A stretch of DNA of 44,634 nucleotides from an uncultured Clostridia bacterium (GTDB lineage: Bacteria; Bacillota; Clostridia; Lachnospirales; Lachnospiraceae): positions 1 through 44,634 of the forward strand of contig CAMVIN010000005.1 in NCBI GenBank assembly GCA_947167565.1, given 5' to 3'. Every line of letters begins with the position of its first letter. The stretch's first letter is position 1. Under the pieces are notes generated by a model, which was not told the DNA's origin, ran no database searches, and saw only the letters and a list, made by a program, of their open reading frames with translations. Below are positions 27,134-42,558 of this stretch, one piece after another. The translations under genes were made by a program, and so were the position numbers.

Positions 27134-28052
27134 AAGATATATAACTCCACTCATGATTATCTCGGCAATTTTTTTACTGGTCATTGTACTGGCAACTCTT
27201 TTTGCAGGGAGAGTTGCCCCACATGATCCGGATGCGCTGGATTTGGTAAATAAGTTATCCGGCTCAAGCGGTGCGCATATTTTTGGGACTGACAAGGTCG
27301 GAAGGGATATTTTTTCAAGGGTTTTGTATGGCGGAAGAACAACGATGCTCAGCGCATTCGCGGTAGTTATTATATCGGTTGTCATCGGTGTGCCACTGGG
27401 ACTTATCACGGGATATTACGGTGGGATTTTTGATAAAATTATTACAAGTGTCTGGAATGTCATTCTCTCGTTTCCATCGATTCTTCTTGCCTTTACTCTT
27501 ATGACTGTTGTGGGAAAGGGGGTTACTGCGGGAATAATAGCACTCGGTGTTGTCTACACGCCGATGATTTCCAGACTCACAAGGTCGCTCACGCTGGTTG
27601 AGAAAAACAAAACTTATGTAGAGGCGGAGAGGGTGCTTGGCGCCAGTGATACAAGAATTCTGTATTTTCATATTTTGCCGAATTGTATTGTGACTATTGT
27701 GGCAGAACTTACCTTGGACCTTGCTTATGCGATTCTTGACCTTGCGGGTTTGAGTTTCCTGGGTCTTGGGGTTCAGCCACCACAGTCAGACTGGGGCTTT
27801 ATGTTGTCTGACGCGCAGCAGTTTATTACGACAGCGCCGCTGCAGGCAATTGTACCGGGCATTCTCATTGTTGTATCTGTGGTGTCTCTCAATGTGCTGA
27901 GCACGGAAATTACGGATGCCATTGAGTCGAGAGGAAAGGTGTCAAATGCAGCTACGTCCTCGACCGAAAAGAACGAGAAAAAAGGTATTGGTAATTTTGT
28001 GACACGGTATATTTTACATAGCGTTGTTCCGCAACGCATTTCTAATCGTTAA
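27126..28052 (+). CDS. ABC transporter permease, OppC/DppC type
   Basis: 308 residues. The N-terminal helix (LMIISAIFLLVIVLATLFAG) is followed by the OppC N-loop with HIFGTDKVGRDIFSRVLYGGR, five further helices and the EAA loop TYVEAERVLGASDTRILYFHILPN. It partners the preceding permease. The C-terminal 40 residues are unusually long and basic or polar (TSSTEKNEKKG...) for the family, but no frameshift is visible. Confidence 0.93.
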   Translation: MRKRYITPLMIISAIFLLVIVLATLFAGRVAPHDPDALDLVNKLSGSSGAHIFGTDKVGRDIFSRVLYGGRTTMLSAFAVVIISVVIGVPLGLITGYYGGIFDKIITSVWNVILSFPSILLAFTLMTVVGKGVTAGIIALGVVYTPMISRLTRSLTLVEKNKTYVEAERVLGASDTRILYFHILPNCIVTIVAELTLDLAYAILDLAGLSFLGLGVQPPQSDWGFMLSDAQQFITTAPLQAIVPGILIVVSVVSLNVLSTEITDAIESRGKVSNAATSSTEKNEKKGIGNFVTRYILHSVVPQRISNR

Positions 28053-28076
28053 AATGATTCAGGGGAAGGTGATGGA

Positions 28077-28865
28077 ATGGAACCTGTCTTGGAAATAAAA
28101 AATTTGAAAACTGCGATACGAACGCCTGACGGTAAGCGGGAAATCGTGAAAGGAATAAATTTGGAACTGGAAAAGGGTGAGATTCACGGGATTGTCGGAG
28201 AGAGTGGGAGTGGTAAGACATTTACAGCAAAATCCATTCTGCGGCTTCACGATGAGTCCGAGGTTGAGTATGAAGGCGGCATCCTGTATGAGGGAGTCAA
28301 TCTTTTGGAACTTCCGGAAAAAGAGATGGAAAAATACCGGGAAAAGGAAATTTCTTATGTATTTCAAAATCCGGCAACTTCCTTTGACAGTCTGTATACC
28401 ATCGGGGCACAGATAGAAGAGACTCTGCGTTACGTGGCGGGACTCGGGAAAAAAGAGGCAAAAAATAGAACGATTGAATTGCTTGAAAGTGTGGGGGTGA
28501 CACCGGCGTCAGAAAAGGTGAAACAGTATCCTCATGAGTTCAGTGGCGGTATGCTTCAGAGAAGCATGATTGCGCTTGCCATCGCCTGCAATCCAAAGAT
28601 TCTGATTGCGGATGAGGCGACGACGGCACTGGATGTCACCATGCAGGCAAAGGTACTTCACCTCTTTAAAGAACTTCGTGACGAGAGAGAATTGTCTGTC
28701 CTCTGCATTACCCATGATATGGGAGTGGTAGCGGAAATCTGTGATACTGTGACGGTCATGTATGACGGCGAGGTGGTGGAGAGCGGTAATGTGCGCGATA
28801 TTTTTGACCGCCCGAAACACCCGTACACGAAAAAACTGTTGGAGAGTTTTCGCGAACTGTCATGA
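28077..28865 (+). CDS. ABC transporter ATP-binding protein, OppD/DppD type
   Basis: 262 residues. Walker A is GESGSGKTFTAKS, the signature motif FSGGMLQRS, Walker B ILIADEATTALD, and the H-loop CITHDMG. It is shorter than typical OppD (about 320), lacking the usual C-terminal oligopeptide domain, including the cysteines found in some members. RBS GGGGAAGGTG precedes the ATG. It acts with the following ATPase gene as a heterodimer. Confidence 0.92.
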   Translation: MEPVLEIKNLKTAIRTPDGKREIVKGINLELEKGEIHGIVGESGSGKTFTAKSILRLHDESEVEYEGGILYEGVNLLELPEKEMEKYREKEISYVFQNPATSFDSLYTIGAQIEETLRYVAGLGKKEAKNRTIELLESVGVTPASEKVKQYPHEFSGGMLQRSMIALAIACNPKILIADEATTALDVTMQAKVLHLFKELRDERELSVLCITHDMGVVAEICDTVTVMYDGEVVESGNVRDIFDRPKHPYTKKLLESFRELS

Positions 28866-28904
28866 TTTTTTTGACCGAAAACCATAAAAAGGAGTGATGT
28901 GGTC

Positions 28905-29663
28905 ATGTCATTATTGGAAGTAAAAGATTTTTCTGTATCGTATAAGCCGAAGAAAAAAGTTGTACATCATGTTTCATTGACAGTGGAGGACTCGGATATA
29001 TTAGGTGTTGTCGGAGAGAGCGGGAGTGGCAAGACTACGTTGACAAAGGGAATTCTCTCGCAACTCCGCTTTACCGAGGGGGAAGTGAAAATTGAGGGTA
29101 AACCGACAAAGTCTCTCTCCAGAAAAGAGTTGTCAAAAAATATACAGATGATATTTCAGAATCCTGCCGGCTCTTTTAACGCCCAGTATAAAATAGAGAC
29201 CTCTCTGCGGGAGGTTGCAAAAATTCACAAGATAAATCGTGAGGATTACGAGAAAAGACTGGCGGCTTTGTTGGAAAAGACGGCTCTTGATTCGGAACTT
29301 CTTGAGCGGTATCCTTCTCAGCTCAGCGGTGGTCAGCTGCAGCGCTTTGCCATTTGCCGGGCGCTTCTTATCCAGCCCAAATTACTGATTGCCGATGAGG
29401 CAGTCTCGGCTCTCGATGTTTCGATTCGCGGGGAGATTCTGAAACTGCTTTTGAAACTGCACGAAGAACTGGGCATTGGAATTATTTTTATTTCCCATGA
29501 CTTAAATGTCGTCCACCGCATTTGTAACAAGGTGGTCGTGTTGTATCACGGGGAAATTGTAGAGGCGGGGGACACGAAAAAAATCTATCAGAATCCGCAG
29601 CATGAGTACACAAAAATTCTGTTAAATTCTAAGACAAAGACGCACCCGGATGAGGTGAGGTAA
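28905..29663 (+). CDS. ABC transporter ATP-binding protein, OppF/DppF type
   Basis: About 252 residues. It shows Walker A GESGSGKTTLTKG, Q-loop IQMIFQNPAGSF, signature LSGGQLQRF, Walker B LLIADEAVSALD and H-loop FISHDLN. ATG 28905 has AAGGAG upstream; GTG 28899 is an alternative two codons longer. The usual C-terminal extension of DppF is absent. This is the last gene of the importer operon; a terminator follows about 50 bp later. Confidence 0.92.
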   Translation: MSLLEVKDFSVSYKPKKKVVHHVSLTVEDSDILGVVGESGSGKTTLTKGILSQLRFTEGEVKIEGKPTKSLSRKELSKNIQMIFQNPAGSFNAQYKIETSLREVAKIHKINREDYEKRLAALLEKTALDSELLERYPSQLSGGQLQRFAICRALLIQPKLLIADEAVSALDVSIRGEILKLLLKLHEELGIGIIFISHDLNVVHRICNKVVVLYHGEIVEAGDTKKIYQNPQHEYTKILLNSKTKTHPDEVR

Positions 29664-29713
29664 AATTTGCAGCAGCATAAGAGTTATATTAGTTATAACC
29701 GTATGTAGTAAAA

Positions 29714-29755
29714 ACGGACAGAAGTTTAAATTTATTAAGTTCTGTCTGTTTTTTT
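29714..29755 (+). terminator. terminator of the importer operon
   Basis: ACGGACAGAA (29714-29723) pairs with TTCTGTCTGT (29740-29749), with one G-U pair, followed by TTTTTTT. Confidence 0.9.
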
Positions 29756-29854
29756 CATTAATATGTACTGGGGATTTTTATTGTGGCGAAATTTGTCGCC
29801 TTATGTTATAATCAGTTTGCTGCCGACTCTTTCCAGCAGGAAGGAGGTGAAGTC

Positions 29855-29944
29855 TTGGAAGTAGTACACACACTTTTTATCTCCATCGTGGCATCTGTAA
29901 TTGCTTATTACATATGCAAATGGCTGGATGGCGATGATAAATAG
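29855..29944 (+). CDS. Fst/par-like type I toxin (29 aa)
   Basis: A TTG start follows a perfect AAGGAGGTGA at good spacing. The product has one hydrophobic helix (FISIVASVIAYYI, about 8-20) and the charged end CKWLDGDDK, which closely resembles the membrane toxins of the Fst/par family (those end in WLD plus Asp/Lys residues). An extended -10 (TGTTATAAT, about 29804-29812) is upstream and a hairpin terminator at 29988-30019 lies downstream. On the opposite strand a convergent RNA starts near 30054 and ends in the same hairpin, as in pAD1 par. Overexpression would be expected to damage the membrane; that is inferred from the family. Confidence 0.75.
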   Translation: MEVVHTLFISIVASVIAYYICKWLDGDDK

Positions 29945-29987
29945 GTAGCAGCAGCCTAAAGCGGAGAAGCTCACCGTAACGAGCAAG

Positions 29988-30019
29988 AAAACCCCCAGAG
30001 TTCCAGCTCTGAGGGTTTT
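29988..30019. terminator. shared bidirectional terminator of the Fst-like toxin and its antisense RNA
   Basis: AAAACCCCCAGAG, loop TTCCAG, CTCTGAGGGTTTT: A-tract on one side and T-tract on the other, between two convergent promoters. Confidence 0.88.
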
Positions 30020-30054
30020 CGTTATTGCCTTGAAAGCAATACACACTTTTAACA
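29988..30054 (-). ncRNA. antitoxin RNA of the Fst-like locus
   Basis: Predicted minus-strand RNA of about 65 nt running from the promoter at 30061-30089 to the bidirectional hairpin, about the length of pAD1 RNA II. The block ACACACTTTT at 30041-30050 (plus-strand reading) also occurs at 29868-29877 within the toxin's first codons, giving a second region of complementarity, as with the direct repeats of par. Its 3' end is complementary to the toxin mRNA terminator. Confidence 0.65.
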
Positions 30055-30060
30055 TCTTTA

Positions 30061-30089
30061 ATTCTAAACTCTTTCAGAACTTTTGTCAA
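30061..30089 (-). promoter_or_regulatory. antitoxin RNA promoter
   Basis: Minus-strand TTGACA (30084-30089), 17-bp spacer, TAGAAT (30061-30066). Strong and constitutive in appearance, as expected for an antitoxin RNA. Confidence 0.8.
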
Positions 30090-30143
30090 CAGTCAATTGA
30101 AGCCATTCAACAATATATAAGATGTAATATAAAAATTATATAT

Positions 30144-30183
30144 AATTCAAAAAAACTATGCCGGTGCATAGTTTTTTTGAATT
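30144..30183. terminator. 40-bp palindromic terminator upstream of the second binding protein
   Basis: Arms of 18 bp (AATTC, seven As, CTATGC and its complement) around the loop CGGT, with T-tracts on both strands. It separates the toxin locus from the promoter of the next gene (TGGACA 30183-30188, 18-bp spacer, TATAAT 30207-30212). Confidence 0.9.
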
Positions 30184-30288
30184 GGACAAATAAAATGTGC
30201 CTGCCTTATAATGTCGTTGAATCGATTCGGAAAACATATTGCAAACATGCCGGCACAGTTCATGCCGGAAACGGAGGTAGAAATTGAT

Positions 30289-31938
30289 ATGAGAAAGAGA
30301 ACAGGAAAAAGAGTAAAGTCAATTATTGCAGGGATATTAACACTGTCGCTTGTGTTTTTGGGTGGATGTGGAGAAAATAATGTGGCAAAAGAGAGTTCGG
30401 CAAGTCAGGGTGGAGTGGTTGCAAATGATGATACACTGAAAAGTGCGGTGGGGGCTATGACGGATTTATCCGTTGTTGACCCGATTATCGGATATAATGA
30501 TGAGACGGATATGATACTAAACAGTATTGTTGAAGGGTTGTTTTATTATGATACAGAGGGGAATGTCAAGCCTCGTCTGGTAAAGGATTATGAGCAGAAG
30601 GATCAGACGACGTATGTTTATCAGATTCGCGATGATGTGAAATTTTCAGACGGTACGGAACTCACCGCGGACGATGTTGTGTTTTCATTGGAGCGGCATC
30701 GTGATTCTTCAAATGCCTCTCTGCTTGCCTGGATGTTTGACAGCGTGGATACGATTGAAAAGACCGGGGATTATGAAGTGACCGTAAAATTAAAACAACC
30801 GGCTCCAATGTGGCAGAATTCGCTGTGTACGCCGGCAGGAAATGTCATCAGCAAAAAATACTATGAAGAGCATAAAGATGGTTTTGGTACAGCGAAAGGC
30901 GGGATTCTCGGTTCGGGTCCATACACGATTACCAAGTGGGAGACAAACTCGGAAATTGACATGGAATACAATGAGGACTACTGGGATAAGGACAGTGCTC
31001 CGGAATTCAAAAAGTTAGTGTACAAGGTGATTCCGGACTCATCGGTGGTGAAACTGGCATTGGAGTCAGGTGAGATTGATTATACCGAAAATATTTCTAT
31101 TGAGGGAGCAAAGGAACTGGAGAACAATGATAAGGTCGATGTACATCCGATTGATACGTTGTGGGATTTGTTCCTATCCTTTAACAATGCAAAAGAACCA
31201 TTTGGAGACAAAAATGTGAGAAAGGCTGTTGCGTATGCTATTGACAAAACGGCAATACGTGATTCGGTATGGGGTGAAAAATATGCTGAGGTTGCCAAGA
31301 GTCTTCAATTCAGTGATGAGATTGTAGTGACACAAAAGGAATTGTGGGGAGATTATTTTGATACGATTGAACCTTATGAGCATGATTTGGAAAAGGCAAA
31401 AAAATATCTGGCAGAGTCGTCTGCTCCGGATGGGTTTGACGCGACTCTTGCCTACGATTCCGGCAATGCGCAGTATGAGGCGGTAGCGCTGGCGATTCAG
31501 CAGAATCTGGCGGAAATCGGCATCAATATCACGCTGCAGGCTTCGACGTCATCGGAAATCAATAATTACCGCTACGGCGGACCGGAAGAACACGCCAAGT
31601 ATGATTTAATGCTGACATTGTGGGGCTCGGATTATCCGGATCCGGTGGGAACGGTTGTGCCGATGTTTTACTCAACCGCAAATATTGAGGGCGGTTCCAA
31701 CTGGACGGAATATGTAAGTCAGGATTATGATAAATTTATTGATGCGGCAGCTGTGGCAAAGACGCCGGAGGACAGGGTAGAACAACTGAAAAAGGCGCTG
31801 GATGTACTGGCAGATGACATCCCTTCTATCCCGATTGTCAATAACTATAATACGATAGCGACAAGTAGCAGGATTGAGTATCCGGTATCTTCGCTGGGAT
31901 TGTATAATACGGATTTCAGAAAAGCCAAAAAGAAATAA
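30289..31938 (+). CDS. orphan family 5 substrate-binding lipoprotein
   Basis: About 549 residues. The lipobox is FLGGCGE (Cys near 25). Long blocks are shared with the binding protein at 24481, for example VKLKQP, DGTELTADDVVFSLERH and WGSDYPDPVG; by eye roughly half the residues agree. It has its own promoter (30183-30212) and no permease or ATPase genes attached, so it probably feeds the same importer with a different ligand range. ATG 30289 has GGAGG in front; an upstream in-frame ATG at 30211 overlaps the promoter -10. No MET-box-like site was found upstream. Confidence 0.92.
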   Translation: MRKRTGKRVKSIIAGILTLSLVFLGGCGENNVAKESSASQGGVVANDDTLKSAVGAMTDLSVVDPIIGYNDETDMILNSIVEGLFYYDTEGNVKPRLVKDYEQKDQTTYVYQIRDDVKFSDGTELTADDVVFSLERHRDSSNASLLAWMFDSVDTIEKTGDYEVTVKLKQPAPMWQNSLCTPAGNVISKKYYEEHKDGFGTAKGGILGSGPYTITKWETNSEIDMEYNEDYWDKDSAPEFKKLVYKVIPDSSVVKLALESGEIDYTENISIEGAKELENNDKVDVHPIDTLWDLFLSFNNAKEPFGDKNVRKAVAYAIDKTAIRDSVWGEKYAEVAKSLQFSDEIVVTQKELWGDYFDTIEPYEHDLEKAKKYLAESSAPDGFDATLAYDSGNAQYEAVALAIQQNLAEIGINITLQASTSSEINNYRYGGPEEHAKYDLMLTLWGSDYPDPVGTVVPMFYSTANIEGGSNWTEYVSQDYDKFIDAAAVAKTPEDRVEQLKKALDVLADDIPSIPIVNNYNTIATSSRIEYPVSSLGLYNTDFRKAKKK

Positions 31939-31947
31939 AATAATCTA

Positions 31948-31976
31948 TTGCATTATGTCCTATAAGGTGGTAATCT
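31948..31976 (+). promoter_or_regulatory. promoter of the Hol_Tox-like toxin
   Basis: TTGCAT (31948-31953), 17-bp spacer, TAATCT (31971-31976). The mRNA has a leader of about 90 nt with several short stems before AGGAGGGAGGTGA and the ATG at 32076. Confidence 0.6.
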
Positions 31977-32075
31977 ATAAGTGTGTGAACACCACGCACT
32001 GAGCGCCTATGACGGGTGGTAGCCTCCCCAACCTGATACCGGCTTGCCGGAATACATAGGAGGGAGGTGACGTTT

Positions 32076-32189
32076 ATGACAGTTTATGAGACTATTATGG
32101 TTGTGTTGAGAGTAATCGGATTATTGATATCGCTCGGCTCACTGTTCATTGCGTTGCTTTCTTTTTTTTACGAGAAGAAGCGAAAATAA
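32076..32189 (+). CDS. Hol_Tox/TxpA-like type I toxin (37 aa)
   Basis: 37 residues: a short start (MTVYETIMVV), one long hydrophobic helix (about 8-31) and a basic end (FFYEKKRK). This pattern is that of small holin-like toxins annotated Hol_Tox and of TxpA. The ribosome site AGGAGGGAGGTGA is very strong, while the leader is structured, consistent with delayed translation. A convergent antisense RNA lies over its 3' region. Toxicity is inferred from the family. Confidence 0.77.
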   Translation: MTVYETIMVVLRVIGLLISLGSLFIALLSFFYEKKRK

Positions 32190-32285
32190 AAATGCCTATC
32201 CTGTCTGAACCCCAGGATAGGCGGTGTCCGTAAGGACAATAAACCACTTGGGGAGCATCCACTTTGGAGTAGGTGCTCTTTATTA
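32190..32285 (-). ncRNA. antisense antitoxin RNA of the Hol_Tox-like locus
   Basis: Predicted minus-strand RNA of about 95 nt starting near 32284 and ending at the hairpin GCCTATCCTG (32194-32203) / CAGGATAGGC (32213-32222). That hairpin is followed on the minus strand by ATTTTTATTTT. It covers the toxin mRNA's 3' untranslated region, the layout of TxpA/RatA and BsrG/SR4. Confidence 0.65.
32253..32282 (+). terminator. plus-strand terminator of the Hol_Tox-like mRNA
   Basis: GAGCA (32253-32257) pairs with TGCTC (32274-32278), with inner CCA/TGG pairing, followed by a T-rich run. Confidence 0.6.
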
Positions 32286-32290
32286 AATAG

Positions 32291-32319
32291 AATATAACAT
32301 TATTTGCACTAAAAATCAA
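32291..32319 (-). promoter_or_regulatory. promoter of the Hol_Tox-like antitoxin RNA
   Basis: Minus-strand TTGATT (32314-32319), 17-bp spacer, TATATT (32291-32296). Confidence 0.7.
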
Positions 32320-32340
32320 TATAATTATTTATTTTTTTAA

Positions 32341-32368
32341 GGTAGAGTTAGAGTCTCTATCTTTTTTT
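32341..32368 (+). terminator. small terminator-like hairpin before the nitrogenase-like promoter
   Basis: GGTAGAG, 7-nt loop, CTCTATC followed by seven Ts. It isolates the nitrogenase-like unit from the toxin locus. Confidence 0.5.
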
Positions 32369-32370
32369 AT

Positions 32371-32440
32371 GTCATAAATTTTTTTTATGACGGTTGATAA
32401 ATTTTATGTATTTTTCAAAAGAAAAGAATTGAGATATAGT
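32371..32440 (+). promoter_or_regulatory. MET-box-like LysR operator and promoter of the nitrogenase-like operon
   Basis: The primary operator is GTCATAA-N7-TTATGAC (32371-32391), a perfect 7+7+7 inverted repeat of the same size as those at 22566 and 37815. The secondary site ATAA-N7-GTAT (32397-32411) starts 26 bp after the operator start, so ATAR cores are 23 bp apart, and it ends at the -35. Promoter TTTTCA (32412-32417), 17-bp spacer, TATAGT (32435-32440). The -35 is weak, as expected if an activator is needed. Confidence 0.72.
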
Positions 32441-32472
32441 ATTATACAGGTTTTGAAAAGGAGATGATACAT

Positions 32473-32802
32473 ATGAGCTATGTAGCGGTAGCGACTCGGG
32501 ATGGAGAAACGGTAAATGCCCATTTTGGAAGGACTCCTTTTTTCTATATCTACGATGTCAGCCAAAAAGAGATACGGTTAGTGGATAGGCGAGATGCTGT
32601 AGAGGCAAGGCAGCAGCAATTCAGTCATAATGAAACGGTTATGAAAAAAATACTGGAATTACTAAAGGATTGTAAAAGTGTCGTTGCAGAGCAAATTGGA
32701 GCAGGTGCAGCAAGAAGCTTGTTGGAAAACGGTCTTAGGGTTTATGAGGCACAAGGATTCATTGATACGGTATTGCGCAGGATGGCATCCGAAACGGATT
32801 GA
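32473..32802 (+). CDS. NifX-like Fe-Mo cofactor-binding domain protein (first copy)
   Basis: 109 residues. YVAVATRDGETVNAHFGRTPFFYIYDV is the start of the NifX/NafY/NifB-C domain (dinitrogenase iron-molybdenum cofactor biosynthesis family). The VxxHFG motif carries the cofactor-contact His. Such domains bind and carry NifB-derived iron-sulfur-carbide clusters in the cytoplasm. ATG 32473 is used because GGAG lies 9 bases upstream; an ATG at 32464 is too close. It is the first gene of the operon and directly precedes the NifB-like gene. Confidence 0.85.
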   Translation: MSYVAVATRDGETVNAHFGRTPFFYIYDVSQKEIRLVDRRDAVEARQQQFSHNETVMKKILELLKDCKSVVAEQIGAGAARSLLENGLRVYEAQGFIDTVLRRMASETD

Positions 32803-32825
32803 TTGCAAGAGTGAGGTGATTGGGA

Positions 32826-33695
32826 TTGAATATAGAAGAACTTTCCCTTTTGCATCCGTGCTTTGCCAGAGGTGAGAAAAACGCCAAAGGAAGAATTCAT
32901 CTTCCGGTCTCACCCGGCTGCAATATCGAGTGCCGGTTTTGCAAGAGGGATTTTAATGATACGGAGCAGGTGCCGGGAGTCGCGTCTTCCCTGCTGACAC
33001 CAAAAGAAGCTGTGGAAGCGGTGGGAAGAGCAAAAGAGGCGTGTCCGGATATTACAGTGGCGGGAATCGCCGGTCCGGGAGATACACTGGCGACAGATTT
33101 TGCTTTGGATACTTTTGAATTAATAAAGAGAGAGCATCCAACGATGGTAAAGTGCATGAGTACGAACGGTCTCATGCTGCCGGACAGAGCAGAGCGTATC
33201 CTGGAAGTGGGAATTGACTCACTGACAGTGACGGTCAACGCTGTGGACCCGGAGATTGAGGCAAAAATAAACGCCGGTATCAACTATCACGGAAAACACT
33301 ATGAAGGGGTAGAGGCTGCCGAAATTTTGATACGAAATCAGTTGGAGGGGATACGACTGATCTCCGAGGGAGGCATAACCGTAAAAGTAAACACGGTATT
33401 AATTCCGGATATCAACGGGGAGCATATTGAGACCGTAGCAAAGACCGTCAGTGAGGCGGGAGCAAAACTCTACAATATCATTCCGCTGATTCCGAGACAT
33501 GAACTGGCGACATATCCGCCGCCAACCTGCGAGCAGATTGACGGTGCCAGACAAAAGGCAGAAAAATATATTGAGGTATTCCGACACTGTATGCACTGCC
33601 GGGCGGATGCTGTCGGAATTCTCGGAGGAGAAGACATTGGAGAGCAGATTTACCTGAAGAGAATACAGGGGGAAACGCCTTTTTCTCACGGTTAA
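32826..33695 (+). CDS. NifB-like radical SAM protein with a missing cluster cysteine
   Basis: 289 residues. NifB builds the Fe8S9C core of nitrogenase cofactors. HPCF (H10), GRIHLPVSPGCN, the radical SAM CxxxCxxC (C32, C36, C39), IAGPGDTLA, KCMSTNGL (C110), VNAVDPEI, VKVNTVLIP and CMHCRADAVG (C255, C258) are all typical. Standard NifB reads CNRKxDCxNExRPGV after the radical SAM site; here it reads CKRDFNDTEQVPGV, so the Cys of DCxNE is absent. No NifX domain is fused at the end; separate copies flank the gene. TTG 32826 has GAGGTG 7 bases upstream. Confidence 0.9.
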   Translation: MNIEELSLLHPCFARGEKNAKGRIHLPVSPGCNIECRFCKRDFNDTEQVPGVASSLLTPKEAVEAVGRAKEACPDITVAGIAGPGDTLATDFALDTFELIKREHPTMVKCMSTNGLMLPDRAERILEVGIDSLTVTVNAVDPEIEAKINAGINYHGKHYEGVEAAEILIRNQLEGIRLISEGGITVKVNTVLIPDINGEHIETVAKTVSEAGAKLYNIIPLIPRHELATYPPPTCEQIDGARQKAEKYIEVFRHCMHCRADAVGILGGEDIGEQIYLKRIQGETPFSHG

Positions 33696-33729
33696 AGTGC
33701 GAAGAGAATTCAGGAAACGGGGGATGACA

Positions 33730-34089
33730 ATGACAAAGAGGTTTGCGGTGGCGACAAAAACCGGTTATCTGGTTGATGAGCATTTGGGACATGCGGGCGT
33801 GTTTGAAATCTATGAGACAGATGGGGTAAAGAGCAGAGAAGTTGCAAAAAGAGAGGTGTTACCCTTCTGTGGAGGGCCGGAGGATTGTCTGGAATTTGAA
33901 AAAAAGATAGAGAGAATTTCTTGTGTGCTGGAAGATTGTGATGGCATTGTTGCACTTATGGCGGGAATGCCGCCGGCGAGAGAACTTTACCGCAGAGGTC
34001 TTCCGGTGTACACAGTCAGTGAAAGTATAGGGGATGCATTGACAATGATATGGCGGGGAGAAGTCGCTCCCTGTTATCAAAATGAATAA
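33730..34089 (+). CDS. NifX-like cofactor-binding domain protein (second copy)
   Basis: 119 residues starting RFAVATKTGYLVDEHLGHAGVFEIYE, the NifX fold with VDEHLGHA at the VxxHFGxA site. It adds cysteines the first copy lacks, including FCGGPEDC near 50. It is diverged from the first copy and may bind a different cluster intermediate or act as a delivery protein to NifDK. The start at 33730 follows GGGGG; a start at 33724 is also possible. Confidence 0.8.
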   Translation: MTKRFAVATKTGYLVDEHLGHAGVFEIYETDGVKSREVAKREVLPFCGGPEDCLEFEKKIERISCVLEDCDGIVALMAGMPPARELYRRGLPVYTVSESIGDALTMIWRGEVAPCYQNE

Positions 34090-34099
34090 AGCAGCATAA

Positions 34100-34978
<879 letters not shown>

Positions 34979-35001
34979 AGTTGAGAAAGGAGGAGCAGAT
35001 C

Positions 35002-36489
35002 ATGAAACCAATTGATATTAATCAGTCAGAGGTAGCAATCAGAGAAATCCGATTGAATTCCATTACCAACTATTATGGTTCGGCCAAGGAACTGGTGAGG
35101 CAGTCACAGGAGGGCTGTTTAAAGGATAAAAAGAGATGTTTCAGCCAGTGTATTGGATGTAGCTCCGGCAATGCATTCTGCCAGTTGTCCGGTATTCGTG
35201 ATGTAGCAGTGATTAACCACGCCCCGGCAGGCTGTAGTAATGATTTCTTTCAATTTGAATTTATTAACCGCGTCGGTTTTGAGGATCTGGGAATTACGGA
35301 TTACCGCTCACATTTTTATAATACCAATTTTAAAGAAAAAAATACCGTCTTTGGGGGGACGGAAAAGTTAAAGAAAATTGCGAGAGAAATTTATGAGAGG
35401 GAACACCCGAAGGCAATTTTTATCACGACTTCCTGTGCGTCGGGAATAATCGGAGATGACGTGGACTCGGCGGCGGGAGAGTTAGAGGAAGAGCTGGGAA
35501 TTCCAGTGACACCTTGTTACTGTGAAGGATTTCGCTCAAAGTTGTGGACGAGTGGTTTTGATGCAGCCTATCACTCTGTCTTAAAGGGCGTAATCAAGCC
35601 ACCGAGGAAAAAGACAAATAAAGTCAATATTATTAATTTCTGGGGAAGCCATATTTTTGATGATTTGCTAAATGAACTGGGATATGAGGCGCAGTACATT
35701 GTGCCGTATTCCTCCTATGAAGAATTGGAGTATGTCTCGGAGGCGGCCGCGACCATTCAGATTTGCTCCACGCTTGGTTCCTATCTGGGCGCAGCACTGG
35801 AACAGCTCTACGGTGTGCCGGAAATCCGATTTGCTCCCGCATATGGAATTGAGGGAACGGATCGATGGATGCGTGAGGTCGGTCGGGTCCTTCACCGCGA
35901 GGAACAGATAGAGGAAATTATCAGCCGGCGCCACCGGGAGATTGAAGAACCGCTGAGAGAGTACAGGGAAAAATTAAAGGGAAAGAGGGCGTATCTGACA
36001 GCGGGGGCAGCGTATGGACATTCTCTCTCTGCGCTGCTCAAAGATTTGGGAATGATTCTGCTTGGCGCGTCGATTTATCACCACGATGCACATTATGATA
36101 ATGGCGATATCAAGGCAGATGCCCTTGCTAATGTCATCGATATGTATGGTGACATTCCGAAATATCATGTCTGTAATAAGCAGACCTATGAGGTTGTCAA
36201 TATTTTGAGTAAAATTGATGCGGACATTTTGATTTCACGTCATCCGGGAATTGTTGTCTGGGGAGCGAAGCTTGGTTTCCCGACCTTTATTGAAGATGAC
36301 GAGCAATTGGCGTTTGGATATCAGGGAATTTTAAACTATGCGGAAAAAATTCTGGACACCCTTGAAACGATAGAATTCACAAAAAATATCCAGAAACACG
36401 CGAGAATACCATACACAAAATGGTGGTTAAAACAGAATCCGTTTACCGTATGGGACGAGGACGAAGGAGGTAGAGCAGCCAATGAGTGA
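35002..36489 (+). CDS. NifD-like catalytic subunit lacking key N2-reduction residues
   Basis: About 495 residues (NifD is about 490). P-cluster cysteines are present: C53 (IGCSSG), C78 (APAGCS) and C145 (TTSCASGIIGDD). C255 (IQICSTLGSYLGAAL) aligns with the cofactor ligand alpha-Cys275. CEGFR (174-178) is conserved but is followed by SKLWTSGFD, where alpha-Gln191 and alpha-His195 would be. The position of alpha-His442 reads Asp432 (FIEDDEQL). So a NifB-type cluster could be held by the Cys alone. ATG 35002 has AAAGGAGG upstream. The stop overlaps the next gene by 8 bases. Confidence 0.9.
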   Translation: MKPIDINQSEVAIREIRLNSITNYYGSAKELVRQSQEGCLKDKKRCFSQCIGCSSGNAFCQLSGIRDVAVINHAPAGCSNDFFQFEFINRVGFEDLGITDYRSHFYNTNFKEKNTVFGGTEKLKKIAREIYEREHPKAIFITTSCASGIIGDDVDSAAGELEEELGIPVTPCYCEGFRSKLWTSGFDAAYHSVLKGVIKPPRKKTNKVNIINFWGSHIFDDLLNELGYEAQYIVPYSSYEELEYVSEAAATIQICSTLGSYLGAALEQLYGVPEIRFAPAYGIEGTDRWMREVGRVLHREEQIEEIISRRHREIEEPLREYREKLKGKRAYLTAGAAYGHSLSALLKDLGMILLGASIYHHDAHYDNGDIKADALANVIDMYGDIPKYHVCNKQTYEVVNILSKIDADILISRHPGIVVWGAKLGFPTFIEDDEQLAFGYQGILNYAEKILDTLETIEFTKNIQKHARIPYTKWWLKQNPFTVWDEDEGGRAANE

Positions 36490-37798
36490 TTTTATTTCTT
36501 ACCCTAAATTCAGTTGTGCACTGGGAGCACAGCAGACTGTTGTTGCTATCCCAAAGAGCGTTCCGATTCTACATTCGGGTCCGGGATGCAGCGGTAAAAT
36601 ATCCCAGCTTCTCGGACAGGGACAGGGGTATGCCGGGGGAAATACAATTCCCTGCACAAATGCAGATGCTAACGATGTCATTTTTGGAGGCGTTAAGGCA
36701 CTGGATGAATTGATAAAAAATTCTTTCCGGATTATCGATGCGGAGTTGTATGTGGTGATGACCGGTTGTACTTCAGATATTATTGGAGATGATGTGCCGA
36801 GTGTGGTAAAACCGTATCAGGCACAGGATAAACCGATTGTCTATGTGGAGACAGGTGGTTTTAAGAGCAATAATTATGTCAGCCACAGTGTTGTGGTCAA
36901 CGCAATTATCGACCAGTATGTAGATAAATACAAAGACAATAAAGGTGTGGAAAAAGGTCTGGTTAATGTCTTTGCATCAGTTCCGGATCAGGATCCGTAC
37001 TGGGAGGGGAATCTGGAGGAAATCAAGCGCGTGCTGGAGGGAATCGGGCTCAAAGTAAATATTCTGTTCGGGATAAATTCAGCGGGTGTCAGCGAGTGGA
37101 AGAGGATTCCGAATGCGGAGTTTAATATTGTTGCCAGCGCGTGGGCAGGAATTGATATTGCCAAACATTTAGAGAAGAAATATGGGACACCGTATATACA
37201 TTTTCCTTATTTCCCGGTTGGTGCGATTCAGACTTCCGATTTTTTGCGTCGGGTTGCACAGTACGCTCATCTGGACAATGAGGTGGTGGAGAGTTTTATA
37301 AAAAAGGAAGAAGACCGCTTTTATGTGTTTTTGGAACGTATGGCAGATTTTATTCTCGAATTTAAATATAATCTTCCAAGGCGTTTTTACAGTACGATTG
37401 ATGCTAATTATTCCATCGGACTTTCCAAGTTTTTTGTCAATGAATTAGGGATTTTGCCGGGGGCTGTCTACATCGTGGATGACACACCGGAGGAATACCG
37501 GCAGAGGGTTTGTGATGAGTTGGAGCATGTGTCAGGTTATCGGAGCATACAGCCAGAATTTGAAATAGATGGGGAAAAGATTTTCCATGAGATATCTGAC
37601 AGGGAAAAGCGTGAGCCTTATATCGTGGTGGGCTCTGCATGGGAGTCGATTCTCACGAAAGAAGATAACGCCGGATTTTTGGAAATCAGTGTGCCGACGC
37701 AGTACAAACTGAATTTGAACCGAACCTATGTCGGATACAACGGAGGGCTTCGAATTATTGAAGATGTTTACTCGGATGCCTTGTCAAAATACCGTTAG
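36482..37798 (+). CDS. NifK-like subunit
   Basis: 438 residues, shorter than NifK (about 520) because the N-terminal extension is absent. P-cluster cysteines match: C12 (SCALGA), C36 (HSGPGCSGK) and C96 (MTGCTSDIIGDD). NADANDVIFGG is conserved. It forms the partner of the NifD-like protein as an alpha2-beta2 tetramer by analogy. The start overlaps the end of the previous gene, so translation is coupled. The operon ends here; no clear terminator follows before the lysR operator. Confidence 0.9.
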   Translation: MSDFISYPKFSCALGAQQTVVAIPKSVPILHSGPGCSGKISQLLGQGQGYAGGNTIPCTNADANDVIFGGVKALDELIKNSFRIIDAELYVVMTGCTSDIIGDDVPSVVKPYQAQDKPIVYVETGGFKSNNYVSHSVVVNAIIDQYVDKYKDNKGVEKGLVNVFASVPDQDPYWEGNLEEIKRVLEGIGLKVNILFGINSAGVSEWKRIPNAEFNIVASAWAGIDIAKHLEKKYGTPYIHFPYFPVGAIQTSDFLRRVAQYAHLDNEVVESFIKKEEDRFYVFLERMADFILEFKYNLPRRFYSTIDANYSIGLSKFFVNELGILPGAVYIVDDTPEEYRQRVCDELEHVSGYRSIQPEFEIDGEKIFHEISDREKREPYIVVGSAWESILTKEDNAGFLEISVPTQYKLNLNRTYVGYNGGLRIIEDVYSDALSKYR

Positions 37799-37814
37799 AG
37801 CATAAAAGAAAACG

Positions 37815-37884
37815 GTTATAGATTTATCCTATAACCAGCGATAGTTATATTCAATAAGATAATATGCATGATTGATGTTATAAT
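37815..37884 (+). promoter_or_regulatory. MET-box-like LysR operator and promoter of lysR
   Basis: The primary operator is GTTATAG-N7-CTATAAC at 37815-37835; the arms extend to 8 bp if the flanking G/C is counted (37814-37836). The secondary site ATAG-N7-CAAT is at 37841-37855. -35 AAGATA (37856-37861) is poor, with a 17-bp spacer and -10 TATAAT (37879-37884). No T-run follows the inverted repeat, so it is an operator, not a terminator. It implies autoregulation. Confidence 0.75.
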
Positions 37885-37932
37885 GTAGGGAGTGGCATTT
37901 GAAATTGTGCAAGGAAGGGATATGGTACATAT

Positions 37933-38868
37933 ATGACAATACAACAAATCAATTATGTTCTGACAATATCCGATGAAGGTTCGATTAATAAGGCTGCCGA
38001 GAAACTATTTCTGACGCAGCCTTCTCTTACCAGTGCGGTGAAAGAACTGGAGGAGGAACTGGGAATTATTATATTTGAGAGAAGTAGAAAGGGTGTTGTC
38101 CCGACCAACGAAGGGCGGGATTTTCTCGCCAGTGTCAGACAGCTTTACCAGCAGTACGAGCTGATTAATGACAAATATAAAAATAAAGATATGTTGAAAA
38201 GGAAGTTCGGGGTGACGACGCAGCACTACTCCTTTGTGGTGCGCTCTTTTGTGGAGACAGTGAAAAAGTTTGACACATCGCTCTTTGAATTTTCTATTTT
38301 TGAGAGCAGAACAAAAGAAGTTATTCAGGATGTATATGAGTCACGGAGTGAAATCGGGATTCTTTTCCTTAACGATTATAATAAGAAAATAATCGGAAAA
38401 TTTTTAAAAAATATGAATTTATCTTTCACGGAACTGATAAAATGTAATGCCTATGTCTATTTGTGGAACGGACATCCGCTTGCCAAAAAAAAGTCTATTT
38501 CCATAGATAATCTCGAAAAATATCCCTGTCTCTCCTTTGATCAGGGAAACGAGAGTTCGATTTATTTTGCGGAGGAAATCCTCAGTGATAATGAGTATCC
38601 GAGGAGTATCAAGACAAATGATCGGGCTACCATGCTCAATCTGATGAAAGGGTTGAATGCGTATACACTCTGCTCGGGAATTATTTCGGACGAACTCAAT
38701 GGGGATGAGTATGTGGCAGTTCCCTTCGAAGAGGATTCAGAAAACAAAAACGGCGTGATGACAATCGGCTATATTGAGCGCAAACAGAGTATTCGCAGTG
38801 ATGTGGGAGAAACCTTTATCGAAGAATTGAAAAATTATCTAAAAACCTGTGTCGGTGTGACAGAATAA
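37933..38868 (+). CDS. LysR-type regulator, probable MtaR/MetR-like activator
   Basis: 311 residues. The N-terminal winged helix-turn-helix (residues about 1-60; SINKAAEKLFLTQPSLTSAVKELEEELG) is followed by an alpha/beta effector-binding domain. The motif GHPLAKKKSISIDNLEKYPCLSFDQG is common in regulators of sulfur and amino-acid genes in Clostridia. The ligand is not known. Four operators of the same form in this window, including its own promoter, suggest it is their regulator. Its promoter sits directly downstream of the nitrogenase-like operon. Confidence 0.85.
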   Translation: MTIQQINYVLTISDEGSINKAAEKLFLTQPSLTSAVKELEEELGIIIFERSRKGVVPTNEGRDFLASVRQLYQQYELINDKYKNKDMLKRKFGVTTQHYSFVVRSFVETVKKFDTSLFEFSIFESRTKEVIQDVYESRSEIGILFLNDYNKKIIGKFLKNMNLSFTELIKCNAYVYLWNGHPLAKKKSISIDNLEKYPCLSFDQGNESSIYFAEEILSDNEYPRSIKTNDRATMLNLMKGLNAYTLCSGIISDELNGDEYVAVPFEEDSENKNGVMTIGYIERKQSIRSDVGETFIEELKNYLKTCVGVTE

Positions 38869-38907
38869 TAGTCGGAAAATCGATGCTTTTAATTCCTACT
38901 AAATCGA

Positions 38908-38936
38908 TTGACATTATAGACAAATGGTGCTAAGAT
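38908..38936 (+). promoter_or_regulatory. promoter of the glutamate-cysteine ligase operon
   Basis: TTGACA (38908-38913), 17-bp spacer, TAAGAT (38931-38936). No operator of the MET-box type stands at the corresponding distance, so this unit may be expressed independently of LysR. Confidence 0.7.
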
Positions 38937-39015
38937 GTAACTATTCGTATGTGGGAATGATAATTTTTGTGGAGCGAAGGTTATTTCGAATCCATTAAAG
39001 AAATGAGGTGGCTTC

Positions 39016-40401
39016 ATGACTGCTGAGACAATCAATGAGGCAATATATGAGAGATACATAAGACCGACAAAGAGAAAAAAGACTGAAAGTGTCGGCTTAG
39101 AATTTGAGTTCCCAATTATAAATACCAAGGGCAATCCGGTTGATTTTCAGGCTGTTCACAGCGTAACGGATGAATTTATTAAAGAATTTTCATTCCGGAG
39201 TGTGCTGCGTGATGATGATGGCTATATTTACTGGGCGGGAAGCGATGAAAATAATGACAGCCTTTCCTACGACTGTAGTTACAACACGCTGGAGTTTTCT
39301 TTTGGTACAGAGTCGGATATCGCCGTGCTTCAGGAACGTTTTGCGAACTACTATCGTTCAATTCAAAAGGCACTTCAGAGCCATGACCACATGATTACCG
39401 GCATGGGGATTAATCCGGGTTATGGTGTTAATCACAATGTGCCGGTTGTCAATGAGAGATACCGCATGCTGTTTCACCATTTGTGTTCCTATGAAAATTA
39501 CGGCAAAGAGATTTTGTTTCACGACCATCCGAATTTTGGACTCTTTTCCTGTGCCAGTCAGGTGCAGCTGGATGTAGAAGAGGAAAATTTGGTGGAGGTA
39601 CTCAACACCTTTACGAAACTGGAACCGTTGAAGGCGCTGCTGCTCGCTAACTCCATCTGGGCGGAGGATGCGAACGAATTTTTGTGCAGCCGGGACTATT
39701 TTTGGAGAAACAGTCTTCATGGTCTGAACCGCCACAATGTGGATATGTATGAGTTGAGTTTTGAATCAATTGAAGAGATTATTTTATATATAAGAAGTAT
39801 GAGTTTATACTGTGTTCAGCGGGATGGACGGTACATCAATTTTTCTCCGATGGCATTGACAGACTATTTTACAGCTGATAGTATTGAAGGTGATATTTTT
39901 GAAAATGGAGCTTACAAGCGGGTAAAATTTCAGCCGGAAATATCGGATTTGGAACATCTTCGATCCTTTAAGTTTGAGGATCTGACTTTCCGTGGCACCG
40001 TAGAATTCCGGAGTGTGTGTGAGCAGCCGGTGAGTGAGATTATGGCTTCGGGGGCGCTGCATACGGGGCTGATGGAAAATTTGCATTCGTTGACTTATAC
40101 ATTAGAAAACGATCATGTGATTTATCATAAAGGATACAATGCGTCCGAGTTGAGAAGGCAGTTTGTCATGACAGATCTGCCAGACATTTATGACAAAAAA
40201 GAGTTGTCAGAGCTGTTGATTAAGATTCTGGATCTGGCGTCGGATGGGCTTAAGATTCGGGCAAAGGGGGAAGAAAAATTCCTCGCTCCGCTCTATGAGA
40301 GAGCGGAACAGTTGATGAGTCCTGCAAGGCAGATGAAACAGGCGCTTCAAAGCGGGGAATCCATGCAGGATTATATCTATAAATATGGAGAGTGTGTATG
40401 A
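39016..40401 (+). CDS. glutamate-cysteine ligase, GCS2/EgtA type
   Basis: 461 residues. The start VGLEFEFPIINTKG carries the glutamate/metal-binding Glu residues, and later blocks GINPGYGVNHNVPV, RYRMLFHHL and FRGTVEFRSVCEQPVSE follow the plant/actinobacterial-type GCL (GCS2) pattern. It ligates the gamma-carboxyl of glutamate to cysteine or a similar amine with ATP. It overlaps the next gene by ATGA, so coupled. Having two ligases of different families side by side is unusual. GAGGTGG lies before the ATG at 39016. Confidence 0.87.
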   Translation: MTAETINEAIYERYIRPTKRKKTESVGLEFEFPIINTKGNPVDFQAVHSVTDEFIKEFSFRSVLRDDDGYIYWAGSDENNDSLSYDCSYNTLEFSFGTESDIAVLQERFANYYRSIQKALQSHDHMITGMGINPGYGVNHNVPVVNERYRMLFHHLCSYENYGKEILFHDHPNFGLFSCASQVQLDVEEENLVEVLNTFTKLEPLKALLLANSIWAEDANEFLCSRDYFWRNSLHGLNRHNVDMYELSFESIEEIILYIRSMSLYCVQRDGRYINFSPMALTDYFTADSIEGDIFENGAYKRVKFQPEISDLEHLRSFKFEDLTFRGTVEFRSVCEQPVSEIMASGALHTGLMENLHSLTYTLENDHVIYHKGYNASELRRQFVMTDLPDIYDKKELSELLIKILDLASDGLKIRAKGEEKFLAPLYERAEQLMSPARQMKQALQSGESMQDYIYKYGECV

Positions 40402-41657
40402 TACATATTGAAAATCAATCTGTCAGAGAACATATTTTAGATGGCAATTTTGGCCTTGAGAGGGAGAGCCTCCGCGTGTTGGGGGATGGCAGTTTTTCTC
40501 ATACCGCCCACCCGTTTCCGGAAGATGAGCACATTGTCCGGGATTTTTGTGAGAATCAGGTAGAGATTAACACCGGTGTTCATAAGAGCGTGCAGGGGGC
40601 GATGGAGGAATTAAAGAGACATCACCGTCGTCTGGTTGAGAAACTGGATGCGCTCCCGGAGAGGGAATTTCTCTGGCCGTTTTCTAATCCGTCGTATATT
40701 AAAGATGAGAAGGATATTCCGGTAGCTGAATTTGAGGGCGCTCTCCGGAACAAAACGATTTACCGGGATTATTTGTCGGGGAAATATGGGCGATATAAGA
40801 TGACCTTTTCCGGAATTCATTTTAATTTTTCCTTTTCTGATGAAATGCTGCGAAAGGATTTCGAATTGAGTGGCGGGGAAGATTTTTCGGCTTATCGGGA
40901 TTCCTTGTATTTGAATCTCGCCAAGGGGCTTGCCGAGTACGGCTGGATTCTCGTGGCGGTGACGGCGGCGAGTCCTGTCTTTGACATGTCTTTTGTGGAG
41001 AGCGGAAAAATGGGCGAAACTATTTTTTCCGGGCTGGCGTCAATTCGCTGTAGTGAACTCGGGTATTGGAATGATTTTGTGCCGATATTTGATTATACAA
41101 ACTTATATTCCTATGTGGAGAGCATCCAGAAATGTGTGGAGGAAGGCTGGCTCAATGCGCCGTCGGAACTCTATTATCCGATTCGCTTAAAATCAGAGGG
41201 GGAGAATAATCTGGACGTTCTCCTGCAAAAAGGTGTGAACCATATTGAACTTCGCATGATTGATTTGAATCCACTCACAGAGTGTTATCTGGATGCGCGG
41301 GACATTGAATTTGCTCATCTGCTGATGGTCTGGATTTGTGCGGGTACCCCGAAGGAAATGAACGGAAAAGAGCAGATTCGCGCCACACAGAATTTTAAGA
41401 GAGCGGCACACTATGATTTGCGAACGGTGAATTATGTGGCGAGAGATGGATTTGCAGTAACGATGCAGGAGGCCGGCAAACTGCTGATTGAGCAGATGAA
41501 GCGATTTTTTGCAGATTATCCGGCTTCTGTGACAGAAGTGCTGGATTATGAATATGATAAATTTATCGACGGCTCTAAGCGGTACGCATGGCAGGTCCGC
41601 ACGGAGTACGGTGAGAATTTTGTAGAAAAAGGAATGGAAATGATACAGGGGAGGTGA
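40398..41657 (+). CDS. glutamate-cysteine ligase, GshA type without GshB domain
   Basis: About 419 residues. NFGLERESLRVLGDGSFSHTAHPFP and DFCENQVEINTGVHKSVQ match the proteobacterial/GshF ligase domain. There is no C-terminal ATP-grasp domain, so it would make gamma-glutamylcysteine (or a relative) but not glutathione. The start ATG 40398 overlaps the stop codon of the preceding gene. Alternative start GTG at 40392. The two ligases may act on different acceptors. Confidence 0.87.
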   Translation: MIHIENQSVREHILDGNFGLERESLRVLGDGSFSHTAHPFPEDEHIVRDFCENQVEINTGVHKSVQGAMEELKRHHRRLVEKLDALPEREFLWPFSNPSYIKDEKDIPVAEFEGALRNKTIYRDYLSGKYGRYKMTFSGIHFNFSFSDEMLRKDFELSGGEDFSAYRDSLYLNLAKGLAEYGWILVAVTAASPVFDMSFVESGKMGETIFSGLASIRCSELGYWNDFVPIFDYTNLYSYVESIQKCVEEGWLNAPSELYYPIRLKSEGENNLDVLLQKGVNHIELRMIDLNPLTECYLDARDIEFAHLLMVWICAGTPKEMNGKEQIRATQNFKRAAHYDLRTVNYVARDGFAVTMQEAGKLLIEQMKRFFADYPASVTEVLDYEYDKFIDGSKRYAWQVRTEYGENFVEKGMEMIQGR

Positions 41658-41663
41658 CAGACT

Positions 41664-42437
41664 ATGTGTGAATTGTTTGGAGTGAGCGGTGTGAAAAAAA
41701 GTGACTGCCGCCGGTTTCTTCGGGAATTCTATTCACATGGCCGGGAACATCCGCACGGCTGGGGAATTGCGCTTATTGAGGGCAATAGTGTGAGAATGCG
41801 CAAAGAACCGGTCTGCTCTCTGGAGAGCACATTTTTGAAAAAACGGTTGTCATCACCGATACGATCAAACTTATTGTTGGCGCATATCCGGCTTGCTACC
41901 AAAGGAAGTATTGAGTACAAAAACACGCATCCATTTATATTAGCGGACAATTCAGGAAGAACATGGACATTAGAGCACAACGGAACCATATTTGAGAGCG
42001 GAGTATTGTCGGGGTATGTACGCAGACAGGACGGGAGTACAGACAGTGAGCGAATTTTGTGCTATCTGGTTGACCGGATGAACCGGGCAATACAGAAAAA
42101 AAAGAGGAGGCTGACAGATGAGGAGAGAGCACAGGTTGTGGAAGATGTTATTTTTACGGTGACGCCGGAGAATAAAGTGAACCTTATTGTCAGCGATGGT
42201 GAACTTCTCTATGTACACACGAATTACAAGGGAAGCCTGCACAGGCACGAGGATGAGGAGCGGGTTGTCTTCTCTACAAAGCCATTGACGGAGAATCATT
42301 GGGAAGAACTTGCGCTGAATACACTTTATGTGTACCGGAAAAACGTACTGATATATGAGGGAATTCCCCACACCAACGAATTCTTTGACAGCGAGGAAAA
42401 AATGAGGTTTTTGTTTCTTGACTTCGCAGAAATGTAA
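41664..42437 (+). CDS. class II glutamine amidotransferase-type hydrolase (EgtC/YafJ-like)
   Basis: 257 residues. The nucleophile is Cys2 (MCELFGVSG), and SHGREHPHGWGIALIEG, LLAHIRLATKGS, NTHPF and EHNGTIF are the Ntn-hydrolase motifs. EgtC of ergothioneine synthesis belongs to this group and removes a gamma-glutamyl group from an intermediate. With two gamma-glutamyl ligases directly upstream (6-bp gap), a role in removing a gamma-glutamyl protecting group is a reasonable hypothesis. GGGGAGGTGA precedes the ATG. Confidence 0.87.
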   Translation: MCELFGVSGVKKSDCRRFLREFYSHGREHPHGWGIALIEGNSVRMRKEPVCSLESTFLKKRLSSPIRSNLLLAHIRLATKGSIEYKNTHPFILADNSGRTWTLEHNGTIFESGVLSGYVRRQDGSTDSERILCYLVDRMNRAIQKKKRRLTDEERAQVVEDVIFTVTPENKVNLIVSDGELLYVHTNYKGSLHRHEDEERVVFSTKPLTENHWEELALNTLYVYRKNVLIYEGIPHTNEFFDSEEKMRFLFLDFAEM

Positions 42438-42515: not shown

Positions 42516-42558
42516 GGAAGTTAAGACGTCAAATGATGAGAAAGAATGGGGGATTTAT

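Follow-up and report, generated by a model that had tools for sequence, protein, structure and literature searches.

Identification of the operon

What reaction is catalyzed by a nitrogenase-like reductase that is encoded beside its own NifB-like protein and whose D and K subunits score below every nitrogenase cut-off? The question is raised by an uncultured Clostridia bacterium of the Lachnospiraceae (assembly GCA_947167565.1), from which positions 1 to 44,634 of contig CAMVIN010000005.1 were analysed; this whole stretch of 44,634 nucleotides is referred to as the window. Six genes in tandem on the forward strand (32473–37798) encode a NifX-like protein, a NifB-like protein, a second NifX-like protein, NifH, and the D and K subunits, and the open reading frames (ORFs) and the Pfam and NCBIfam matches agreed with a first-pass annotation of the sequence on all six genes, their order, and their strand. 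The operon probably encodes a group IV-A (Nfa) reductase that uses a NifB-made cofactor and ATP to cleave C–S bonds for sulfur salvage, releasing a thiol or sulfide. This interpretation builds on the observed gene content, phylogeny, ligand and pocket residues, and neighbourhoods of relatives, and extends from them to the likely cluster, substrate uptake, reaction, and product.

The first NifX-like gene (32473–32802; PF02579, E 8e-23) has an ATG at 32473 preceded by an AAGGAG site, and the ATG at 32464 is open too. NifX-like proteins act as carriers of the NifB product NifB-co, and this one probably carries the NifB-made cluster. The NifB-like radical S-adenosylmethionine protein (32820–33695) matched the nifB model TIGR01290 (E 1.3e-83, 281 bits, profile positions 10–292 of 441) below the cut-off of 344 bits, which is set for the full two-domain protein; it is without the fused NifX domain and retains the core motifs HPC, CxxxCxxC, AGPG, and CxxCRxDAxG. 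The motif names given for the operon proteins follow general usage. The second NifX-like gene (33697–34089, likely start at 33724 or 33730; PF02579, E 4e-9) is followed by the NifH-like reductase gene (34127–34978), which passed TIGR01287 nifH (460 bits, cut-off 394) with the ATPase loop and two [4Fe-4S] cysteines retained. The D subunit (34981 or 35002 to 36489; PF00148, E 5e-77) likely starts at the ATG at 35002 and then has 495 residues, and the K subunit lies at 36482–37798 (PF00148, E 2e-60). As the intergenic gaps are at most about 40 nucleotides and D and K overlap, a single transcript is plausible, which is the part of the earlier claim of one promoter that stands; the promoter itself did not emerge, as 31 promoter-like matches were counted in 29600–39100 compared with 20.7 ± 4.2 in shuffled sequences.

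The D subunit scored 144 bits against the NifD model (cut-off 654), 169 against NifE (505), 80 against VnfD (823), and 71 against AnfD (874), and it was far under the cut-offs of the tetrapyrrole reductase models BchN (62–71 bits, cut-offs 324–420) and CfbD (37 bits, cut-off 268). The K subunit was under the cut-offs of all the nitrogenase, NifEN, chlorophyllide, and F430 models that it matched. Membership in the Nif, Vnf, or Anf nitrogenases or in the tetrapyrrole reductases, the latter a placement that the first-pass annotation had named as contrary to its proposal, was thus rejected by the model cut-offs. The best matches among PDB structures were the methylthio-alkane reductase (Mar) subunits, namely MarD for D (437 bits) and MarK for K (417 bits), with the best nitrogenase at 133 and 66 bits, respectively.

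Phylogeny and distribution of the D subunit

Trees were built from D. The careful tree had 63 rows, with support given as ultrafast bootstrap/SH-like approximate likelihood ratio test; it was reduced from a quick tree of 92 rows by dropping 29 (seven long or odd, sixteen other group-IV, four clade-A, and two nif rows). The window D fell into a clade of 28 rows (clade A, 100/99) and, within it, into subclade A1 (12 rows, 100/99), next to subclade A2 (14 rows, 100/100). It is outside the Mar clade (6 rows, 100/100), the nif rows, and the Isr-like rows, in a clade that neighbours the Mar clade. Clade A and the Mar side grouped at 95/85 (84 on the quick tree, which recovered the same clades). Identity to MarD was 55–81% for the Mar-clade sequences and 41% for the window D.

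The sole PF00148 D/K pair of Endomicrobium proavitum (genome G740) fell into clade A, subclade A2, and its D was 51% identical to that of the window. As this pair is the published "group IV nitrogenase", clade A corresponds to group IV-A (Nfa), to which available passages of PMC9147875 assign the NfaDK of E. proavitum and Paenibacillus riograndensis. Paenibacillus sinensis was placed in clade A; the P. riograndensis of the literature was not placed. The clade, which the first-pass annotation had considered impossible to fix by eye, has thereby been placed, and the description as a new reductase was too strong for a group that is little studied but already bears a name and that a 2023 preprint, in the portion available, ties to sulfur (PMC10418091).

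A scan of genome contigs gave at least 592 relatives among 596 stretches, of which the best 80, each at least 49% identical, were retained; by title, these best 80 came from Bacillota groups, Endomicrobium, Treponema and other spirochaetes, Coriobacteriales, and Synergistaceae. Named strains in the clade include Ruminococcus albus 8, Clostridium akagii DSM 12554, Acetobacterium tundrae DSM 9173, and P. sinensis, and the closest among the matches listed was Ruminococcus sp. YE71 (locus L105; 75% identity on the tree columns and 77% by tblastn). D relatives occurred in 52 of 299 genomes of an even family sample at E 1e-20, with the window and ten others at 49–55%, and in 12 of 398 genomes of a phylum sample at E 1e-40; six of these, not counting the window, belong to clade A. 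Any D relative was present in four of the 39 genomes of the window's own genus; the other three were 35–41% identical, and the two of these on the quick tree were both in other clades. Such patchy spread suggests horizontal transfer. Genomes G385 and G508 carry both a clade-A D and a Mar D, and clade-A genomes G369 and G425 additionally carry nifD above the cut-off.

As a separate observation, at least three group-IV D genes of different clades were found in some genomes (G508, G385, G699, and G278; loci L249, L251, L254, L255, and L034). Multiple clades per genome suggest several substrates.

Cluster ligands and pocket residues

The retention of P-cluster and cofactor cysteines, claimed from the first-pass reading, was confirmed. 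The window D (numbered from the ATG at 35002) has the P-cluster cysteines C53, C78, and C145 and the cofactor ligands Cys255 and His414, K has C12, C36, and C96, and the D pocket contains C60–Q61, L181, W182, F186, H360, and R413. The K P-cluster cysteines were present in 122 of 122 K rows, including Mar and other group-IV rows. An extra K cysteine, C58 (window 36653–36655), was kept in 114 of the 122 K rows and is Ser in MarK.

Residues were counted by MarD numbering in 98 rows of relatives, a set that excludes the window, holds E. proavitum twice, and includes L251_7962 from outside clade A. Cys66, Cys91, Cys158, Cys270, Trp195, Phe199, His375, Arg428, and His429 occurred in 98/98 and Cys73 in 96/98. 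At position 194, the relatives have Ile (47), Val (30), Met (20), or Leu (1) and never His, and the window has Leu, while all six Mar-clade rows have His. The NifD residues Val70, Gln191, and His195 were found in 6/6 NifD rows and at none of the corresponding columns of the 98 relatives. Cys73–Gln74 of MarD is kept in A1; position 74 is Thr, Met, Val, or Ala in A2 and Thr in E. proavitum.

The Arg428–His429 pair has been proposed as a possible Mar hallmark in an available passage of PMC12552129. It occurred in none of the 13 nif rows and was carried by several further group-IV clades, so it marks a set wider than Mar.

Gene neighbourhoods in clade A

Protein clustering around 89 clade-A loci yielded pyridoxal phosphate-dependent transsulfuration enzymes (56), CysK/MccA (37), MetQ/SsuA-type binding proteins (44), ATP-binding cassette (ABC) ATPases (59), MetI (26), SsuC-like permeases (27), LysR (18), Rrf2 (12), and MetA (9). 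NCBIfam names agreed for ten cluster representatives, eight of which scored below the curated cut-off. Hidden Markov models (HMMs) made from these clusters were scanned on 96 clade-A and 23 nif loci (medians of 17.4 and 18 kb); as they were trained on clade A, they may favour clade-A loci. Among the nif controls, 21 of 23 had nifD above the cut-off, with L222 and L047 just under it (640 and 637 bits, cut-off 654).

At least one of MetY, MccB, CysK, MetA, and MetQ/SsuA was found in 78 of 96 clade-A loci compared with 0 of 23 nif loci, and with only the sulfur enzymes counted, the figures were 67/96 and 0/23. These counts shifted by at most one locus under looser or tighter score limits; Fisher p-values overstate their certainty, because the loci share ancestry and include a few near-duplicates. 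ABC ATPase models gave the sole matches in nif loci (4/23). In 57/96 clade-A loci, the gene for a sulfur enzyme shared the strand of D/K and lay no more than 4 kb away. NifB and NifH each matched within 61/96 loci, and many D/K pairs are thus separate from them. Markers were also present in 22 of 39 loci classed as other group IV; L242, L243, and L247 were dropped as repeats, and L249 (from G508, with clade A, Mar, and markers) was counted in that class. On the quick tree of all rows, MetI and SsuC occurred in 20 and 9 of 37 A1 loci and in 6 and 18 of 51 A2 loci, respectively.

Two loci illustrate this organization. In E. proavitum (L239), MetY, SsuA-like, SsuC-like, SsuB-like, D, K, an NlpA-like fragment, NifX-like, MccB, CysK, NifB, NifX-like, and NifH are encoded on one strand, the SsuA-like binding protein scoring below its cut-off. 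In Ruminococcus sp. YE71 (L105), D, K, SBP_bac_5, OppB, OppC, two ATPases, and MetY (cut by the locus end) likewise lie on one strand, and the Opp importer is 51–66% identical to that of the window.

Sulfur economy of the host genomes

The host genome (3.08 Mb, 95% complete) contained two PF00148 matches, the D and K of the operon, which form the sole nitrogenase-type D/K pair found. The early statements that nifEN and nifV are missing hold at the scale of this genome: nifEN was not found by the PF00148 search, no nifD was found at E 1e-100, and nifV had no match above the cut-off (best 88.8 bits, cut-off 462.9). Among 18 genomes, nifV was above the cut-off in seven, namely five nif controls and clade-A genomes G369 and G385; the best match in E. 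proavitum (319 bits, cut-off 463) was below it.

Two copies of MetY (O-acetylhomoserine sulfhydrylase) above the cut-off were encoded on other contigs of the host genome. Siroheme sulfite/nitrite reductase (PF01077) was not found in ten of the 13 clade-A genomes tested (of 22 then known), the host and E. proavitum among the ten, nor in two of five nif control genomes. Sulfite would therefore be of little use to these bacteria, and an Isr-type sulfonate cleavage is a poorer fit than the release of a thiol or sulfide for capture by MetY.

Proposed function and alternative explanations

In the proposed pathway, an organosulfur compound would be imported, in the window lineage probably by an Opp-type importer. 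The NifB-like enzyme would assemble an Fe8S9C-type cluster, and the NifX-like carriers would hand it straight to D without a Mo/homocitrate step, so that NifEN and NifV would not be needed. NifH would hydrolyze ATP and pass electrons via the P-cluster to the cluster ligated by Cys255 and His414 of the D subunit; a C–S bond may be reductively cut there, and the thiol or sulfide freed would be captured by MetY. More tentatively, group IV-A may constitute a second, separate family of NifB-cofactor C–S reductases that are not nitrogenases and whose pocket differs from that of Mar at position 194; sulfur salvage may then be the role of the E. proavitum enzyme, from which group IV nitrogenases came to be credited with N2 fixation, and the window subclade may cleave a larger, perhaps peptide- or glutathione-like, thioether supplied by the Opp importer.

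The first-pass annotation had proposed a Mar-like C–S cleavage within a sulfur regulon. The clade neighbourhoods and pocket residues support this proposal. Beside the window operon itself, MetY, CysK, MccB, MetA, and MetQ were not found (27000–43500), and the sulfur link runs through the relatives. This weighs against the C–S reductase interpretation, as do the 18 of 96 clade-A loci without markers, some of them on short contigs, and an Rfam search of window 20000–44634 and seven of 80 named relatives, which found no riboswitch. Finally, E. proavitum takes up 15N2 with NfaDK genes as its only nif-like set, according to passages of PMC9147875.

The last point is the core of one alternative, that group IV-A fixes N2 on a NifB cluster without NifEN, Mo, or homocitrate. 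N2 fixation by E. proavitum is restated in available passages of PMC8399215 and PMC11257099, and we found no dispute of it in the open-licence literature; its only PF00148 pair shares the clade of the window D, and the P-cluster and cofactor ligands are kept. The first-pass annotation had regarded placement among N2 fixers as contrary to its proposal, and that placement is partly at issue here, since N2 fixation with clade-A genes has been reported for E. proavitum: the window D is outside the nif rows, yet in the clade of a reported fixer. As a counterweight, the E. proavitum pair lies within a cluster of sulfur amino-acid genes. Nitrogen fixation is unlikely to be the function, given the sulfur markers confined to clade-A loci in the comparison with nif loci, the replacement of NifD Val70, Gln191, and His195, a feature shared with Mar, an enzyme inactive on N2 (passages of PMC12552129), the results for nifEN, not found, and nifV, none above the cut-off, in the host genome and E. 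proavitum, and the separate nifD of G369 and G425.

An ordinary methylthio-alkane reductase acting on the Mar substrates methylthioethanol, dimethyl sulfide, and ethyl methyl sulfide appears similarly improbable. Mar is the closest solved structure, and among the compared pocket residues the window differs at 194 only. That position, however, is the His194 near the S2B site that every Mar-clade row has and no relative has, and Mar orthology was rejected by the D tree, with the lower identity to MarD, and by the co-occurrence of both types in G385 and G508.

It is very improbable that the enzyme is an Isr-like sulfonate reductase that releases sulfite. SsuC-like permeases were detected by the HMM scan near 26 of 96 clade-A loci, that of E. 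proavitum among them, together with its SsuA-like protein. According to the available text of PMC11423573, however, IsrD is without two P-cluster cysteines and the equivalents of Cys275 and His442, and IsrB is not NifB-like; the window keeps these ligands and NifB, by which Isr identity was rejected, and sulfite would be a poor product in genomes in which sulfite reductase was not found. Separately, the D proteins at L042 (6474–7880), L043 (6365–7768), and L046 (6459–7964) lack two of the P-cluster cysteines, the first and the third, as well as the cofactor cysteine; H adjoins D, and no NifB match was found in these loci. These proteins match what has been published on Isr.

A tetrapyrrole reductase of the BchNB/YZ or CfbCD type, suggested by distant homology only, can practically be dismissed, as the models are far under the cut-off and a NifB gene and full ligand sets for both clusters are present.

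Surroundings of the operon in the window

An Opp/Gsi-type ABC importer (substrate-binding protein, two permeases, and two ATPases; 24481–29663, forward strand) lies upstream and may be tied to the reductase; a close relative stands directly behind D–K and ahead of MetY in L105. A second SBP_bac_5 binding protein (30211–31938, forward strand), 49% identical to the first, precedes the operon. A LysR regulator (37933–38868, forward strand; PF00126/PF03466) follows it; its family recurs at other group-IV loci, with relatives in 22 loci (best 60%). GCS2-like and GshA-type ligases and a class-II amidotransferase (39016–42437, forward strand; Pfam and NCBIfam) are located further downstream, where MetF is also encoded. 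The sulfur and methyl neighbours of the first-pass annotation are therefore present as GCS2-like, GshA-type, MetF, and LysR proteins, but not as the sulfur markers searched for beside the operon.

Group-IV loci L115, L127, and L067 also carry GshA together with the class-II amidotransferase, and L115 alone among them has the GCS2-like protein. The ligase and amidotransferase genes of the window may be linked to the reductase, and the recurrence of the GshA/amidotransferase pair hints at γ-glutamyl-thiol chemistry tied to these reductases.

Short ORFs for membrane peptides (29819–30030 and 32076–32189), resembling type I toxin–antitoxin systems, flank the binding protein gene at 30211–31938. 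An Rfam match to SpF66 (45.2 bits, gathering score 42) overlaps the first of them and was the sole match above a gathering score; the weaker matches look chance-like. A sulfur riboswitch upstream of the operon was rejected, as the Rfam search of window 20000–44634 and seven relatives found none. A 592-residue ORF upstream of the importer (22673–24451), a peptidase by eye, had no NCBIfam (E up to 1e-30) or Pfam match.

Significance and comparison with known systems

The available portion of the 2023 preprint (PMC10418091) describes group IV-A MarHDK-like genes in or near methyltransferase clusters and proposes methionine salvage or sulfur recovery. The present analysis adds the clade placement, the nif-controlled neighbourhoods, the position-194 signature, the sulfite reductase argument, and the Opp–MetY link in the window lineage. 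It also adds the location of the E. proavitum D/K pair within a sulfur gene cluster, which we did not find in the open-licence literature.

If the C–S reductase interpretation is right, nitrogenase-type cofactors serve sulfur salvage across anaerobes, with records from rumens, termite guts, soils, and other sources; the published example of NifEN-free N2 fixation (E. proavitum) then needs re-testing. Group IV-A sequences form a nested outgroup in a reconstruction of nitrogenase ancestors (available text of PMC9641968), and their true function therefore bears on the origin of nitrogenase. The named clade-A strains and E. proavitum are hosts in which the choice between sulfur and N2 can be tested.

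Mo-nitrogenase NifHDK shares with the window system the fold, NifH, NifB, and the P-cluster cysteines; it differs in the NifD residues Val70, Gln191, and His195, replaced in the window, and in NifEN and NifV, which were not found in the host. IsrBHDK of Rhodobacter capsulatus is likewise nitrogenase-like and assigned to sulfur assimilation, but is without the P- and L-cluster ligands and the NifB that the window keeps. MarBHDK of Rhodospirillum rubrum (PDB 9FMG and 9D9U) has in common the NifB–H–D–K set, the six P-cluster cysteines, the ligands Cys270 and His429, the residues Arg428, Trp195, Phe199, and His375, and a sulfur role, which in the window is predicted. The window system differs from it in its separate clade (D about 41% identical), in Leu at Mar His194 (aliphatic throughout the relatives), in the Opp, MetNIQ, or SsuABC-type importers near clade A, and in the co-occurrence of clade A with Mar in two genomes. 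The group IV-A Nfa systems of E. proavitum and Paenibacillus share the clade, the cluster ligands, and the NifB–H–D–K content. E. proavitum belongs to A2, with Gln replaced by Thr, an SsuABC-like importer, and MetY, MccB, and CysK in the cluster, whereas the window belongs to A1, keeps Cys–Gln, and has an Opp importer, a LysR regulator, and a gene order of its own.

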